Both the position numbers and the translations under genes were made by a program. The notes under the pieces were generated by a model. It worked only from the letters and a program-made list of their open reading frames with translations. It searched no databases and was not told the DNA's origin. Positions 49,546-63,918 of a stretch of DNA of 64,000 nt are shown here, piece by piece. Source of the DNA: Alcaligenes ammonioxydans (lineage in GTDB: Bacteria; Pseudomonadota; Gammaproteobacteria; Burkholderiales; Burkholderiaceae_B); the NCBI RefSeq assembly GCF_019343455.1, contig NZ_CP049362.1, positions 806,001 through 870,000 of the forward strand. The letters are read 5' to 3'. Position 1 is the stretch's first letter. Every line of letters starts with the position of its first letter.

Positions 49546-49583
49546 CCGAGTCGCAGGCTTGGTGACGCCGTCGCTGAAAACGG

Positions 49584-49606
49584 TATAATACTGTTTTTAT
49601 ATACAG
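49584..49606 (+). promoter_or_regulatory. Promoter with LexA (SOS) box for the radical SAM-UdgX operon
   Basis: TATAAT (49584-49589) is followed directly by CTGTTTTTATATACAG (49591-49606), which matches the E. coli-type LexA operator CTG-N10-CAG with an A/T-rich centre. The box overlaps the expected transcription start and ends ten bases before the ATG at 49617, an ideal place for repression. TTGGTG (49559-49564) may be a weak -35. Confidence 0.8.
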
Positions 49607-49616
49607 CAATGGTGCC

Positions 49617-50822
49617 ATGGAGCTTGCGCGCAAACTTGAGATTCTGGCTGACGCGGCCAAGTATGATGCCTCGTGCGCCAGCAGTGCGGCCCCCAAACGG
49701 GATTCCCGTGGGCGCACGGGTCTGGGCGCCAGTACCGGTGCCGGTATCTGCCACAGCTTTACGCCGGACGGACGCTGCGTTTCGCTGCTCAAGATACTGC
49801 TGACCAATTTTTGCCAGTATGACTGCCTGTATTGTGTGAACCGGCGCTCCAGCAACGTGCCACGAGCGCGTTTTCGGCCTGCAGAAGTGGTGGATCTGAC
49901 GCTGGATTTTTATCGGCGCAACTATATAGATGGGCTTTTCCTGAGCTCGGGCATCATCCGCAGCTCGGACTACACCATGGAGAGTCTGGTCGAAGTGGCG
50001 CGTTCCTTGCGCGAGGATCATCATTTTCGTGGCTATATCCACCTTAAAACCATTCCGGATGCCGACCCGCAGTTGATCACGCTGGCAGGCCAGTACGCGG
50101 ACCGGCTCAGCGTCAATATTGAGCTTCCCACGGATGCCGGCCTGAATCGCCTGGCTCCGGAAAAAAGCGGTCACACGATCAAGCGGGCCATGGGGGTGAT
50201 TCGTCTGGCCCAGGAGCAGGCCCAGCAAGAGAAACGGCCCAAGGTGCCGGCGGGGCAAAGTACGCAGATGATCGTGGGGGCCGATGCGGCCGATGACCGC
50301 AATATTTTGCAAACCGCCCAGACGCTGTACGGGGCTTACAAGCTCAAACGGGTGTATTACTCCGCTTTTAGTCCTATTCCGGATAGTTCCTCGGCGCTGC
50401 CGGCGCAGCCGCCCCCGCTCTTGCGCGAGCACCGTCTGTATCAAGCCGATTTTTTGTTGCGCAGCTACGGGTTTCGGGCCGAGGAACTGTTTCAGAATAC
50501 AGGCGACCTGCCTTTGGATATTGATCCCAAGCTGTCTTGGGCCTTGTCGAACCGGGATATTTTTCCGGTGGATCTGAACCGGGCCCCTGAACGACTGATT
50601 GCCCGTGTGCCGGGCATTGGTATTCGCAATGCCAAGCGTCTGGTGGAACTGCGTCAGATGCGGGCTATTCGATACCAGGACCTGATCCGTTTGCGTTGCT
50701 CTATCCGTACATTGCAGCCTTTTGTTGTGGTGCAGGATTATCGTCCCGGGCTAGCCGAGGCGGCCTCCGACACCTTACGTCGCATGCTGTCGAGCAATCC
50801 GCAGCAACTGAGCCTGCTATGA
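49617..50822 (+). CDS. Putative DNA modification/repair radical SAM protein (TIGR03916 type)
   Basis: A 401-residue radical SAM enzyme. KLEILADAAKYDASCASS is the family N-terminus; CQYDCLYC (Cys66, Cys70, Cys73) is the iron-sulfur CxxxCxxC motif; IELPTDAGLNRLAPEK follows in the barrel. The C-terminal VPGIGIRNAKRLVELR is a helix-hairpin-helix DNA-binding motif. Such proteins are regularly encoded next to DUF4130 or UdgX proteins, as here, but their reaction is not known. ATG 49617 lies ten bases after a LexA box; there is no clear ribosome binding site. The next gene starts within about 25 bases. Confidence 0.88.
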   Translation: MELARKLEILADAAKYDASCASSAAPKRDSRGRTGLGASTGAGICHSFTPDGRCVSLLKILLTNFCQYDCLYCVNRRSSNVPRARFRPAEVVDLTLDFYRRNYIDGLFLSSGIIRSSDYTMESLVEVARSLREDHHFRGYIHLKTIPDADPQLITLAGQYADRLSVNIELPTDAGLNRLAPEKSGHTIKRAMGVIRLAQEQAQQEKRPKVPAGQSTQMIVGADAADDRNILQTAQTLYGAYKLKRVYYSAFSPIPDSSSALPAQPPPLLREHRLYQADFLLRSYGFRAEELFQNTGDLPLDIDPKLSWALSNRDIFPVDLNRAPERLIARVPGIGIRNAKRLVELRQMRAIRYQDLIRLRCSIRTLQPFVVVQDYRPGLAEAASDTLRRMLSSNPQQLSLL

Positions 50823-50844
50823 GGCCCGCTTGCCAGCTCTCCGT

Positions 50845-52392
50845 ATGGCCTACACCCGGCAAGGGCAGGCCCGGATGGTAACCCTGCAGGTAGACGGGGG
50901 GTACGCTGGCTGGCGGGAACAGGCTTTACGTGCTCTGGCCGCCAGCTGGGCACCGGAACAACTTTGCTGGGCAGACTCCTTCGCGGAACCGGGGCCCAGG
51001 GCGGGGCAAATCGGGCTGGAATATGAGCTCTCCCAGTCGCTGCCCCCCGCAACTGAGGTGTTGCAAGAGCCCCAGGGGCATGAACCCGCCAACCGGCCGT
51101 CGGTCCGTATTTCAAAAGGACTGGCTGCTTTGCTGCAAGATGCGGCGTTGTGCCGTACTGCACAGCGATGGGCCTTGCTCTATCGTGTCTTGTGGCGCTG
51201 GCACCACGGTGATCGCAGTGTGGAGTCCGTGGCCGACGAGGATGGGGCGCGTTTGTATGAGATGGCCAAGGCCGTTCGCAAGGAAAAGCACGACATGATG
51301 GCGTATGTGCGGTTTCGCCATTGTGGAACGGGCCAGTTGCCTGAGTACTGGGCTTGGTTTGAGCCCGAGCACGATGTTCTGGAGTGGATCGCTGATTATT
51401 TTTCCAGACGGATGGGGGGAACCTCTTGGTGTATTGCGACGCCTCGGCGTGTGGCGCTGTGGGATGGTCATACGCTGCAGCTACGGGATGCGCCGGACGA
51501 TCTGAAAGCCCGACAGGCTGGTCCGGGGCAGGACCAGGTAGAAGCCTTGTGGCTTCGTTATTACCAAAGCATTTTTAATCCCGCGCGCTTGAATGAAACG
51601 GCTTTGCAGCAGAGCATGCCGGTTCGATTCTGGAAGGGCTTGCCTGAAGCGAGCCTGATTCCGGCCATGGTCAGTGAGGCCCGTCGTGGAGCCCGACGAG
51701 TCGGCCAGTTCAGTGCGGTAAGTCAGATGCCAGGCAAGGTGATTGCGGTCCAGGCCGACCATGCACAGCCCGAACGCAGTGCGCCGTCGGTCCTGGAGGC
51801 CTGTCGTCGCTGCGGCCTTTGGGAGCACGCGACACACGGGGTGCCGGGGGAGGGCCCGGCAAGGGCCCGCATGATGCTGCTGGGGGAGCAGCCTGGCGAC
51901 TACGAGGATTTGGCGGGGCGCGTTTTTGTAGGGCCTGCCGGGCAGATTCTGGATCAGGCATTGCAGCGTGCCGGTATTGAGCGCAACGCGCTGTATCTGA
52001 GCAATGCCGTCAAGCATTTCAAGTGGAAAGCGAGGGGTAAGCAGCGTTTACATGTCAGCCCCTCCCAGGCCGAAGTGCAGGCATGCGGGTATTGGCTGCA
52101 AGAGGAACTGGCGCGCCTTGAACCGGCTGTCATTGTTACGCTGGGAGCCACCGCCTTGTCTGCTTTGCTGGGGCCTGAGCGACGGCTTGCCGAATATCTG
52201 GCCAAACCTTTTCTCTGGGGGCAGACTTGGGTCATTGCGACCTGGCACCCCTCCTATGCGCTGCGTGTGGGCAATGCGGCCCGTCGTGAAGAGATTGTCA
52301 GCAGCATTGCCCAGGTGCTGCAAATGGGGTGGCAGCGGGCTGCAGAGCCGGCTGCGGACAGGGCTGAAAGCAGCCTTAGCCCAGCCGTGTGA
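50845..52392 (+). CDS. DUF4130-UdgX fusion, uracil-DNA glycosylase superfamily
   Basis: A ~515-residue two-part protein. The N-terminal ~240 residues (VDGGYAGWREQALRALAA, VRKEKHDMMAYVRF) fit the DUF4130/TIGR03915 family that partners the radical SAM protein. The C-terminal ~200 residues are a family-4-like uracil-DNA glycosylase: LLGEQPGDYEDLAGRVFVGPAG (Glu348-Asp352 region), NAVKHFKWKARGKQRLHVSP and ATWHPSYALR. The His of QRLH (~residue 403) corresponds to the His that in mycobacterial UdgX forms a covalent bond to DNA at uracil. Starts TTG 50830 and ATG 50875 are also possible. The end overlaps convergent folK by 17 bases. Confidence 0.87.
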   Translation: MAYTRQGQARMVTLQVDGGYAGWREQALRALAASWAPEQLCWADSFAEPGPRAGQIGLEYELSQSLPPATEVLQEPQGHEPANRPSVRISKGLAALLQDAALCRTAQRWALLYRVLWRWHHGDRSVESVADEDGARLYEMAKAVRKEKHDMMAYVRFRHCGTGQLPEYWAWFEPEHDVLEWIADYFSRRMGGTSWCIATPRRVALWDGHTLQLRDAPDDLKARQAGPGQDQVEALWLRYYQSIFNPARLNETALQQSMPVRFWKGLPEASLIPAMVSEARRGARRVGQFSAVSQMPGKVIAVQADHAQPERSAPSVLEACRRCGLWEHATHGVPGEGPARARMMLLGEQPGDYEDLAGRVFVGPAGQILDQALQRAGIERNALYLSNAVKHFKWKARGKQRLHVSPSQAEVQACGYWLQEELARLEPAVIVTLGATALSALLGPERRLAEYLAKPFLWGQTWVIATWHPSYALRVGNAARREEIVSSIAQVLQMGWQRAAEPAADRAESSLSPAV

Positions 52393-61754: not shown

Positions 61755-63918
61755 AGCGCCCGTTCTCCTTGAGCCAGGCCAGGCTTTTGCCCATGTCCAT
61801 CAGAATCGTGTCCAGCTCCTGTTTGACGGCCTGAGCCATGGGGCGGCTGCCACAAACACGCACAAGCGCGCCTTTTTCCAGAAGGGTACGGATCTGTTGA
61901 GCGTCACGCTGCACGGCGTTCTGGACATAACCGCCCCCATCGGGCATTCGGGAAAAAGTGGTGTGTAGTTCGCGCAGATGGCCCTGGGTCTGCCAGTCCT
62001 TGAGCTCCTTGCCAAAATAGAAATCCCGCTTGCAGTCCCGGGTACCGTAATACAGGTACATGGGACGATGGCGTGTGTTGTCTCGAATAAAGCCAGCCAG
62101 TGGGGCGACGCCGGTCCCTGCGCCGATCAGCACCACCGGGCGTCGGGAGCCGGTAAGCGTGAAGCCGGGGTTGGGTCGGATGAAGGCTTGAGTCGTGTCC
62201 CCGATGTGCAGGCTATGCAAATAGGGAGAGCAGACTCCGCCGCTGGTGTGTCGCACACAGATTTCCACGAATCCATCCTGTTTGCCTGAGGCCAGAGAGT
62301 AGTAGCGTGGGACTGACTGCTCACCGGGAGGAAGAATGCCCAGCAGGTCTCCGGCCGCGAAGCGTGCCAAGGGCTGGTCGGGCAGCGCAAAGCGCAGGAT
62401 GACGGCAGGCTGGCCCGCTGCACCGGGAAAGTCCTGGCGTGACAGCAGGGTCAGGCTTGCCATGCGCGGCAGTCGGGGTTGATAGGCCAGCGGCACAGGT
62501 TGACCCAGTACGTCGGACAGTGCGCGCCCCCAGCGGGCAAATTCCTGGGGGGACTGCTGATGGATACGCTCCAGCGCCATCAAGGGTTGCCACCCCCGTT
62601 CCCGTAAGCTGTGTTCGAGCGCGTTGGCAAATCCGCAGAAATCAGGAAACTGGCGATCCCCAAACCCTAGAACGGCGACTTGAGCGTCGGTGGGTGGCTG
62701 GCTGGCGATCCGCTTGAGTGCTTTTTGTGCGTGGGCAGGAGGCTGGCCTTCACCGTACGTGGCGGCGAGGATATACACATGGCGTGCCGCGGGCGGCACC
62801 CGCCAGTTCTCCAGCGATGTGGTATGAACCTGACGGCCCATGGCTTTGAGGGCATCGTGCAACGCTTGCGCAAAGCCCCAGGTACTGCCGCCTTCACTCG
62901 CGACAAAAATCAGGCTGTCGGCCTGGGTCAGAGGGCTATTGCCTTTAAGTCTGGGGCGGCTGCGGCGCGCTTGCCACCACATCAGAAGGCCTGTGTACCA
63001 GAACAGGGGGATGCTCGCTGCCGACAGGCACAGAAAAACAGCCCACAGCCAGGCTCCCTCTCCGGTATGCAAAAGCAGGGCCCAGTCGTAGAGGCGCTGT
63101 GCCTGGGTGGATGCTTCCCACGCCAAGGTCTGGCCCCTGTACTGGTCCGCCCAGCCCTGCCCTTGAGCGGTGACCACACGCCAGGTGTCCTGTGGATCAT
63201 CGGGCGTGGGCAGATTGAGCCGTTCCAGATCCTGCGCGCGCAAGCTCCGAAGCAGTTCGATCTGGTCCGGGGGAAGGGGTGGCTGTCCGGTGGCTTGTGA
63301 GCTCACCTCGGGCTCCGTGTCCGGACTCAGGGTAATGAGCTCGAACGTGCTGGCGCTCATGTAAAGAGCGGTGGCTGAGGACAGGGCCAGGATCAGCACA
63401 ATGACCCTGCCGCTCAGGACATGCAGGCGTTGGGGCAGGGTTCCGCGAACGGGGCCGGCAAGACCCCGCCATCCTCCCATGCGACGCAGCAGCAGTAGGA
63501 GTCCGGACACGGACAAGACCAACATGGCCAGCGCCACCATGGCGGCGGTAATGCGCCCCGGATCGTCCATCAAGAAAGTACGATGCAGGTTCTTGACCCA
63601 GCGTGGCAGCAGGGAAGCCTGGTAGTCCCCCAGAATCTTGCCATCTGCCGGGTCCACACGTACGGCCTGGGCTTGTCCGTCCTCAAACGCATAGACAACG
63701 AAGATCCCCGAGGGCAGATGACGGATTTCTTCTGCGCCAGGGACGGTGCCCTTGATGCGCTCAACCAGTGTGGCAAGCGGCAGGTCGGACTCGGTTGGAG
63801 CCGCCTGTACGGCGTTACGCAAGGGGTCAAGTGCCAACATCGTGCCCGTGATACCCAGAACCAGCGCGAGGGTGCCCGCTACCAGCCCCAGCCATCGATG
63901 GACGAATCGCCAGATCAT
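61735..63918 (-). CDS. PepSY-membrane/flavodoxin/NADPH reductase fusion (sulfite reductase flavoprotein-like)
   Basis: A 727-residue multidomain protein. The N-terminal ~330 residues are a PepSY-associated membrane domain with four helices (FVHRWLGLVAGTLALVLGIT; NLHRTFLMDD; WAVFLCLSAASIPLFWYTGL) and a periplasmic loop. Then a flavodoxin domain (SLIFVASEGGSTWGFAQALHD), an FAD-binding domain (PRYYSLASGKQDG) and an NADP-binding domain (VVLIGAGTGVAPLAGFI; YYGTRDCKRDFYFGKEL). It would pass NADPH electrons through FAD and FMN across the inner membrane. Start ATG 63918 after AAGGA. ApbE follows. Confidence 0.87.
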   Translation of the reverse strand: MIWRFVHRWLGLVAGTLALVLGITGTMLALDPLRNAVQAAPTESDLPLATLVERIKGTVPGAEEIRHLPSGIFVVYAFEDGQAQAVRVDPADGKILGDYQASLLPRWVKNLHRTFLMDDPGRITAAMVALAMLVLSVSGLLLLLRRMGGWRGLAGPVRGTLPQRLHVLSGRVIVLILALSSATALYMSASTFELITLSPDTEPEVSSQATGQPPLPPDQIELLRSLRAQDLERLNLPTPDDPQDTWRVVTAQGQGWADQYRGQTLAWEASTQAQRLYDWALLLHTGEGAWLWAVFLCLSAASIPLFWYTGLLMWWQARRSRPRLKGNSPLTQADSLIFVASEGGSTWGFAQALHDALKAMGRQVHTTSLENWRVPPAARHVYILAATYGEGQPPAHAQKALKRIASQPPTDAQVAVLGFGDRQFPDFCGFANALEHSLRERGWQPLMALERIHQQSPQEFARWGRALSDVLGQPVPLAYQPRLPRMASLTLLSRQDFPGAAGQPAVILRFALPDQPLARFAAGDLLGILPPGEQSVPRYYSLASGKQDGFVEICVRHTSGGVCSPYLHSLHIGDTTQAFIRPNPGFTLTGSRRPVVLIGAGTGVAPLAGFIRDNTRHRPMYLYYGTRDCKRDFYFGKELKDWQTQGHLRELHTTFSRMPDGGGYVQNAVQRDAQQIRTLLEKGALVRVCGSRPMAQAVKQELDTILMDMGKSLAWLKENGRYAEDLF

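Follow-up and report, generated by a model that had tools for sequence, protein, structure and literature searches.

A LexA-box operon pairing a radical-SAM protein with DUF4130-UdgX in Alcaligenes ammonioxydans, a probable SOS-controlled system for processing DNA lesions

A two-gene operon, COG1573-COG4277, has been placed under LexA-motif control in Bacteroidetes by comparative genomics, with Verrucomicrobia and Alphaproteobacteria cited as further cases, and uracil-DNA glycosylases (UDGs) have been proposed to counter misincorporation by SOS polymerases (PMC8565304; all cited papers are represented here by the available parts of their texts). We describe a similar operon of Alcaligenes ammonioxydans, found in a window of 64,000 nucleotides (contig NZ_CP049362.1, positions 806,001 to 870,000), which encodes a radical S-adenosylmethionine (radical-SAM) protein and a DUF4130-UdgX fusion and carries a LexA operator (SOS box) in its promoter. 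We take COG4277 to be the helix-hairpin-helix (HHH)/radical-SAM family found here. The two systems are then alike in having two genes under apparent LexA control, one for a UDG-family protein and one for a COG4277 protein. They differ in that the Bacteroidetes operon has been read as UDG-based base excision, whereas our data point to a core of radical-SAM protein plus DUF4130 with UdgX optional, and in the box itself, which in the window is CTGT-N8-ACAG, unlike that of the Bacteroidetes operon. LexA control of the gene pair is not new, since it has been reported for the three groups named above (PMC8565304).

The original prediction for this locus named a radical-SAM protein and a DUF4130-UdgX fusion, and both assignments are right: the genes score above the curated cut-offs of three linked NCBIfam families, TIGR03914, TIGR03915 and TIGR03916. 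No reaction is given in the short descriptions of these families, nor do they refer to the cysteine triad described below; TIGR03916 is entered as a putative DNA modification/repair radical-SAM protein. DUF4130 has been described as a predicted enzyme related to mutagenesis, and its associations are with radical-SAM proteins of the SplB-like type and with uracil DNA glycosylases (PMC3765255). Common as the gene pair is (84 of 398 sampled Pseudomonadota genomes), no reaction is assigned to TIGR03915 or TIGR03916 in the literature searched, a search with most subscription journals outside its coverage, and the available part of PMC1839093 holds nothing on a radical-SAM plus DUF4130 pair. The question of function is made experimentally concrete by the conserved triad of cysteines, by the constancy of the pairing and by the fact that UdgX is optional.

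The two genes lie on the same strand, with 7 bases between the radical-SAM stop codon and the fusion gene (Table 1). The predicted promoter arrangement, a box after TATAAT and ten bases to the ATG, is borne out by the sequence: 10 bases separate the end of CTGTTTTTATATACAG from the in-frame radical-SAM ATG at 49617, and an out-of-frame ATG lies at 49609. The same region shuffled 50 times gave a mean of 0.8 sites of equal sigma-70-like quality. In the window, CTGTN8ACAG with at most one mismatch occurs 18 times against 22.35 expected. This lack of enrichment weighs against reading the box as an operator and speaks for the alternative that it is a chance or unused match, with the operon outside LexA control; the motif by itself thus proves nothing, and its density was rejected as evidence. 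Exact CTGT-N8-ACAG also occurs at 50487-50502, within the radical-SAM gene, and at 62991-63006; neither of these extra boxes has an all-A/T core, and both probably arose by chance.

The host genome offers a sharper pattern. Its single 3.77-Mb contig contains 10 sites of the A/T-core form CTGTNWWWWWWNACAG versus 0 of the reversed pattern, and the ten include the operon box and one site before recA. Not all ten precede known genes of the SOS response: an open reading frame (ORF) for a CobW-like GTPase starts 51 bases after one of them, a TrhO-like ORF 41 bases after another, and several are beside unassigned ORFs, in a neighbour scan that left out L008, L129 and L135. An exact box stands 35 bases before a recA start, and lexA has a one-mismatch box 11 bases before its start. 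No weight was placed on the umuD promoter: its one-mismatch CTGTTTATTTATCCAG (L017:1420-1435) falls within the umuD ORF as read at its greatest length (1390-1869), which may not begin at the true start. The host LexA (230.4 bits) carries GFKSANAAEDHLKALARKG where its best PDB match, 7b5g, presumably the E. coli protein, has GFRSPNAAEEHLKALARKG; with a recognition region so nearly identical, the LexA type appears, judged by its sequence, to match this operator. Three A/T-core boxes of the host genome (L130, L131 and L132) fall within 7 kb (C1:1831491-1838063); three ORFs scanned near them had no NCBIfam match at E 1e-8, and the cluster is perhaps a mobile element.

Conservation was followed from the genus outwards. 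At seven loci of the same genus with diverged flanks, TATAAT is kept in all seven, GTGACG in six, the exact box in five and CTGGTTTTATATACAG in two; the seven include two pairs with the same sequence over the stretch compared. A comparison of homologous operon promoters, named in the original prediction as a check, came out in its favour: a box with at most one mismatch lies within 150 bases upstream in 76 of 80 named relatives (48 perfect, 28 with one mismatch), a set biased to Burkholderiales and Pseudomonas in which related genomes are not independent. Nearly all of these boxes are 9-20 bases before the start. The reversed pattern GACA-N8-TGTC was found at the same tolerance in 6 of 81 named loci (window included) and was never perfect, and the background for the box at these loci was 36/1107 upstream of other long ORFs and 46/2000 in random stretches. 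The four named relatives without a box are two Pseudomonas (two mismatches), one Rhizobiaceae genome and one Rhodanobacter.

Of 398 evenly sampled Pseudomonadota genomes, 84 have TIGR03916 over its cut-off, the host's own included, and the 83 other promoters were read. In the host's class, CTGT-N8-ACAG is present at no more than one mismatch in 24 of 29 operons: it is perfect in 9/10 from the host's order, and in the rest of the class perfect in 10/19 and one mismatch away in 5/19. The same 29 operons gave two one-mismatch and no perfect hits to the reversed pattern, and no perfect GTTC-N7-GTTC. In the other classes, all 54 operons have a perfect GTTC-N7-GTTC in either orientation, versus 2/54 for its reversed control and 14/1740 (0.8%) for random stretches of the same size; perfect CTGT-N8-ACAG is found in 0/54, with one mismatch in 3. 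These 54 genomes are presumably Alphaproteobacteria in the majority, and GTTC-N7-GTTC is the alphaproteobacterial LexA motif (PMC8565304), as CTGT-N8-ACAG is the SOS box of most Betaproteobacteria (PMC6595937). Boxes before radical-SAM and DNA modification/repair genes have been mentioned for Acidovorax citrulli, as data not shown (PMC6595937). Among the named loci, 11 from alphaproteobacterial plasmids and a Rhizobiaceae contig have perfect GAAC-N7-GAAC in 12/12, with no perfect CTGT-N8-ACAG and no perfect reversed control in any of the 12.

A LexA box of the type expected for the lineage is thus found in 78 of 83 operons. Together with the host LexA, the lexA and recA boxes and the conserved footprint in the genus, this strongly supports, at the level of sequence, the predicted LexA control of the operon. 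That the box matched by chance or goes unused is extremely improbable, given both the exact other-lineage box in every out-of-class operon at a background of 0.8% and the in-class count. Because the box is kept though its type differs between groups, selection appears to have kept the pair within the response to DNA damage across widely different bacteria.

Table 1. Features of the operon and its promoter, in window positions.
Feature	Position	Strand	Details
Sigma-70-like promoter	49562..49589	+	GTGACG 49562-49567, spacer 16, TATAAT 49584-49589; 10/12 consensus matches
LexA operator (SOS box) CTGTTTTTATATACAG	49591..49606	+	Exact CTGT-N8-ACAG; one base past TATAAT
Radical-SAM protein TIGR03916 (rSAM_link_UDG), 401 amino acids	49617..50822	+	Profile match
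Extra invariant cysteines C20, C45, C54	49674..49778	+	Candidate auxiliary Fe-S cluster ligands
Radical-SAM cluster motif C66-x3-C70-x2-C73	49812..49835	+	Kept in 151/151 aligned proteins
Weak helix-hairpin-helix (HHH_3), residues 318-348	50568..50660	+	23.8 bits, under Pfam cut-off 27
DUF4130-UdgX fusion, 520 amino acids	50830..52392	+	TTG start; alternative in-frame ATG at 50845
TIGR03915 / DUF4130 domain, residues 20-274	50887..51651	+	194.5 bits, cut-off 112.25
UdgX domain, residues 309-495	51754..52314	+	TIGR03914 225.6 bits, cut-off 189.95

The expected box is missing in 5 of the 83 sampled operons. Three of the five come from a single family, f18, which has a good LexA gene; the promoter of this lexA carries TTAGTAGTAATACTACTAA, which we take to be the motif known from Xanthomonas. 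The operon promoter in f18 does not have TTAGTAGTAATACTACTAA, so LexA control there is absent or different. An inverted repeat at that promoter was considered as a lexA box and rejected, as it differs from the box of lexA. At the three f18 loci (L186, L187 and L191), two share GGTCTCATCCAATGAGACC in the operon promoter and the third has a one-sided variant; an element of this type is possibly another operator. The fourth exception (G323) has only a partial LexA match of 62.8 bits and no full-length one. The fifth (G609) has a diverged LexA under the cut-off (99.6 bits), and its operon and lexA promoters give a loose by-eye alignment that was not counted as a box.

Across the 398 genomes, TIGR03915 is over cut-off in 87 and TIGR03914 in 78. 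All 84 genomes with the radical-SAM gene also have TIGR03915, and three further genomes have TIGR03915 alone. UdgX, counted anywhere in the genome rather than in the operon, is over cut-off in 63 of the 84, with none over cut-off in the remaining 21, and is present without the radical-SAM gene in 15 genomes of the 398. Where the partner was read in Pseudomonas, Salinicola and Acinetobacter, it consists of DUF4130 without UdgX and, when complete, has about 265-325 amino acids. With DUF4130 in 84/84 and UdgX in 63/84, the core is the radical-SAM protein plus DUF4130, and UdgX is a frequent add-on. The original prediction took the radical-SAM protein and the DUF4130-UdgX protein as the pair, but the constant members are the radical-SAM protein and DUF4130. 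The function of the core cannot hinge on UdgX cross-linking, given the 21 pairs with no UdgX over cut-off, and for the same reason the resolving of a UdgX crosslink was set aside as a universal job of the pair.

The radical-SAM protein scores 531.9 bits with TIGR03916 (cut-off 343.5), its sole NCBIfam match at E 0.001, and 37.5 bits with PF04055. We aligned 151 such proteins, keeping near-identical strains and leaving out L042 (the window copy), the below-cut-off fragments L045-L047 and 53 operons read for their promoters only. Positions 20, 45 and 54, ahead of the CX3CX2C motif, are cysteine in 151/151, and H46, beside C45, is likewise kept in 151/151. The three cysteines suggest a second iron-sulfur cluster. 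A predicted model of medium confidence likens the protein to lipoyl synthase (LipA/LIAS). The N-terminal auxiliary motif of LipA is CX4CX5C. This motif is absent from the window protein, whose cysteines at 20, 45 and 54 are spaced X24 and X8, so it is not a LipA and has a LipA-like layout at most; it also differs in its 8% identity to 4u0o and its HHH-like C-terminus. The predicted helix-hairpin-helix is weak: the region matches HHH_3 and its P332, G333 and G335 are invariant in the alignment, but the score falls below the Pfam cut-off (Table 1). The protein resembles SplB in being a radical-SAM protein tied to the SOS response; among its NCBIfam and Pfam matches at E 0.001 there is no model of SplB or spore photoproduct lyase, no dedicated comparison having been made.

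In the fusion, the DUF4130 model has a predicted local distance difference test (pLDDT) score that reaches about 90 or higher for the greater part of residues 91-220 and is lower in 51-90 and 221-274. Invariant columns of DUF4130 include H154, R161, P179, W200, W241 and R253 (window numbering). Its sequence profile found no convincing match in the PDB (best E 0.42), and in a structure search with the whole fusion model the matches were all taken by the UdgX domain. UdgX motif A is GEQPG (51883-51897, residues 352-356), and the R-loop is KQRLH (52039-52053), with a cross-linking-type His408. The R and H of this K/R-x-R-x-H loop are kept in 40/40 UdgX-fused partners, window included, counted from 91 loci (80 relatives, 10 plasmid loci and the window). 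The published UdgX signatures are R107 and H109, with Q53 co-occurring, and H109 bonds to abasic-site (AP) DNA (PMC10359453). Motif B is HPSYALR versus the published HPS(S/A)(L/V)(L/V)R, with the same H and R and two differing middle positions; other DUF4130-UdgX fusions are also off the published motif (e.g. HPSYLLR). UdgX of Mycobacterium smegmatis has the R-loop KRRIH; the window UdgX differs from it also in its fusion to DUF4130 and in belonging to a LexA-box operon.

Radical-SAM activating or peptide-modifying enzymes modify partner proteins, and SRAP/HMCES proteins shield abasic sites. The constant pairing would also suit a maturase and its substrate, the radical-SAM protein modifying the DUF4130 protein and the finished DUF4130(-UdgX) shielding abasic sites during the SOS response. 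UdgX does bond covalently with AP-DNA (PMC10359453), and SRAP is another SOS-linked family of DNA-damage proteins (PMC3765255). We consider this reading rather unlikely, however, as a weak HHH of DNA-binding-like type is present in the radical-SAM protein, DUF4130 has several invariant polar residues and no single obvious modification site, and a quarter of the radical-SAM genomes (21/84) have no UdgX over cut-off.

The reading we favour, with moderate confidence, is that the two genes form an SOS-induced operon, repressed by LexA, whose products process DNA lesions. The observations above support the operator and its conservation, the invariable pairing of radical-SAM protein with DUF4130, the optional nature of UdgX, its retained His and the extra cysteines; the biochemical role we infer from the mode of regulation, from UdgX and from the weak HHH, and the pair may plausibly act on a lesion or crosslink. 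A scheme running from LexA binding and induction to complex formation, a second cluster and radical chemistry on a lesion would be as follows. LexA on the operator, just past the -10 hexamer, would block transcription. Damage would activate RecA, LexA would be cleaved and both proteins would be made. The radical-SAM protein and DUF4130 would form the constant core, in which the former, probably with a second Fe-S cluster on C20/C45/C54, would perform radical chemistry on a damaged nucleotide, and the weak HHH and DUF4130 might hold the DNA or act as second catalytic parts. UdgX, the optional fused domain, would remove uracil, capture the abasic site via His408 and tether the complex there.

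A bolder form of this lesion-processing proposal, which we regard as unlikely, makes the core a DNA repair enzyme of a new kind, in which a radical-SAM protein with two clusters, together with DUF4130, would carry out auxiliary-cluster-dependent chemistry on a damaged nucleotide; a suicide UdgX arm, gained in most sampled lineages, would pin the complex covalently at the site. The chemistry might then be the cleavage, by a radical route, of a crosslink or of an adduct on base or sugar, possibly with sulfur transfer.

The distribution of the operon bears on another alternative. It is patchy, with 27 of 250 genomes over cut-off in a family sample and 84/398 in the phylum sample, and 158 plasmid records, most of them large and non-mobilizable, also carry it. 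Such patchiness would fit an anti-phage system in which SOS-induced UdgX, an enzyme acting on uracil DNA (PMC10359453), traps uracil-containing or modified phage DNA, and the radical-SAM protein and DUF4130 make or read a base modification. PADLOC models gave no match to either protein at E 0.01, though, UdgX is optional and LexA control is strongly conserved, and we hold an anti-phage role to be very unlikely.

Several minor observations concern the composition and surroundings of the operon. In the host genus it is accessory, being present in six genomes (own included) and absent in at least four listed. Downstream of the window operon is folK, on the opposite strand; an upstream ORF of 92 amino acids has no family match in NCBIfam or Pfam. 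The genes that intervene between the radical-SAM and DUF4130 genes showed no common theme in the four genomes inspected for them. In G641, a cytidine/dCMP-deaminase-fold gene (L236:1726-2223 (-); PF00383, 48.3 bits) stands between the radical-SAM and DUF4130-UdgX genes, and may be either a source of uracil next to a protein that traps it or simply a TadA-like gene. In G273 the intervening gene has a hemerythrin domain (L235:1722-2198 (-)), and in G478 and G490 (L233:2261-4684 (-) and L234:2800-5042 (+)) a beta-helix TIGR03805 gene and a diheme-cytochrome-family TIGR03806 gene are found there. One record carrying the gene pair is named 'Acinetobacter phage MD-2021a' (L147); glyS and glyQ adjoin the pair, and the record looks like bacterial chromosome rather than phage.

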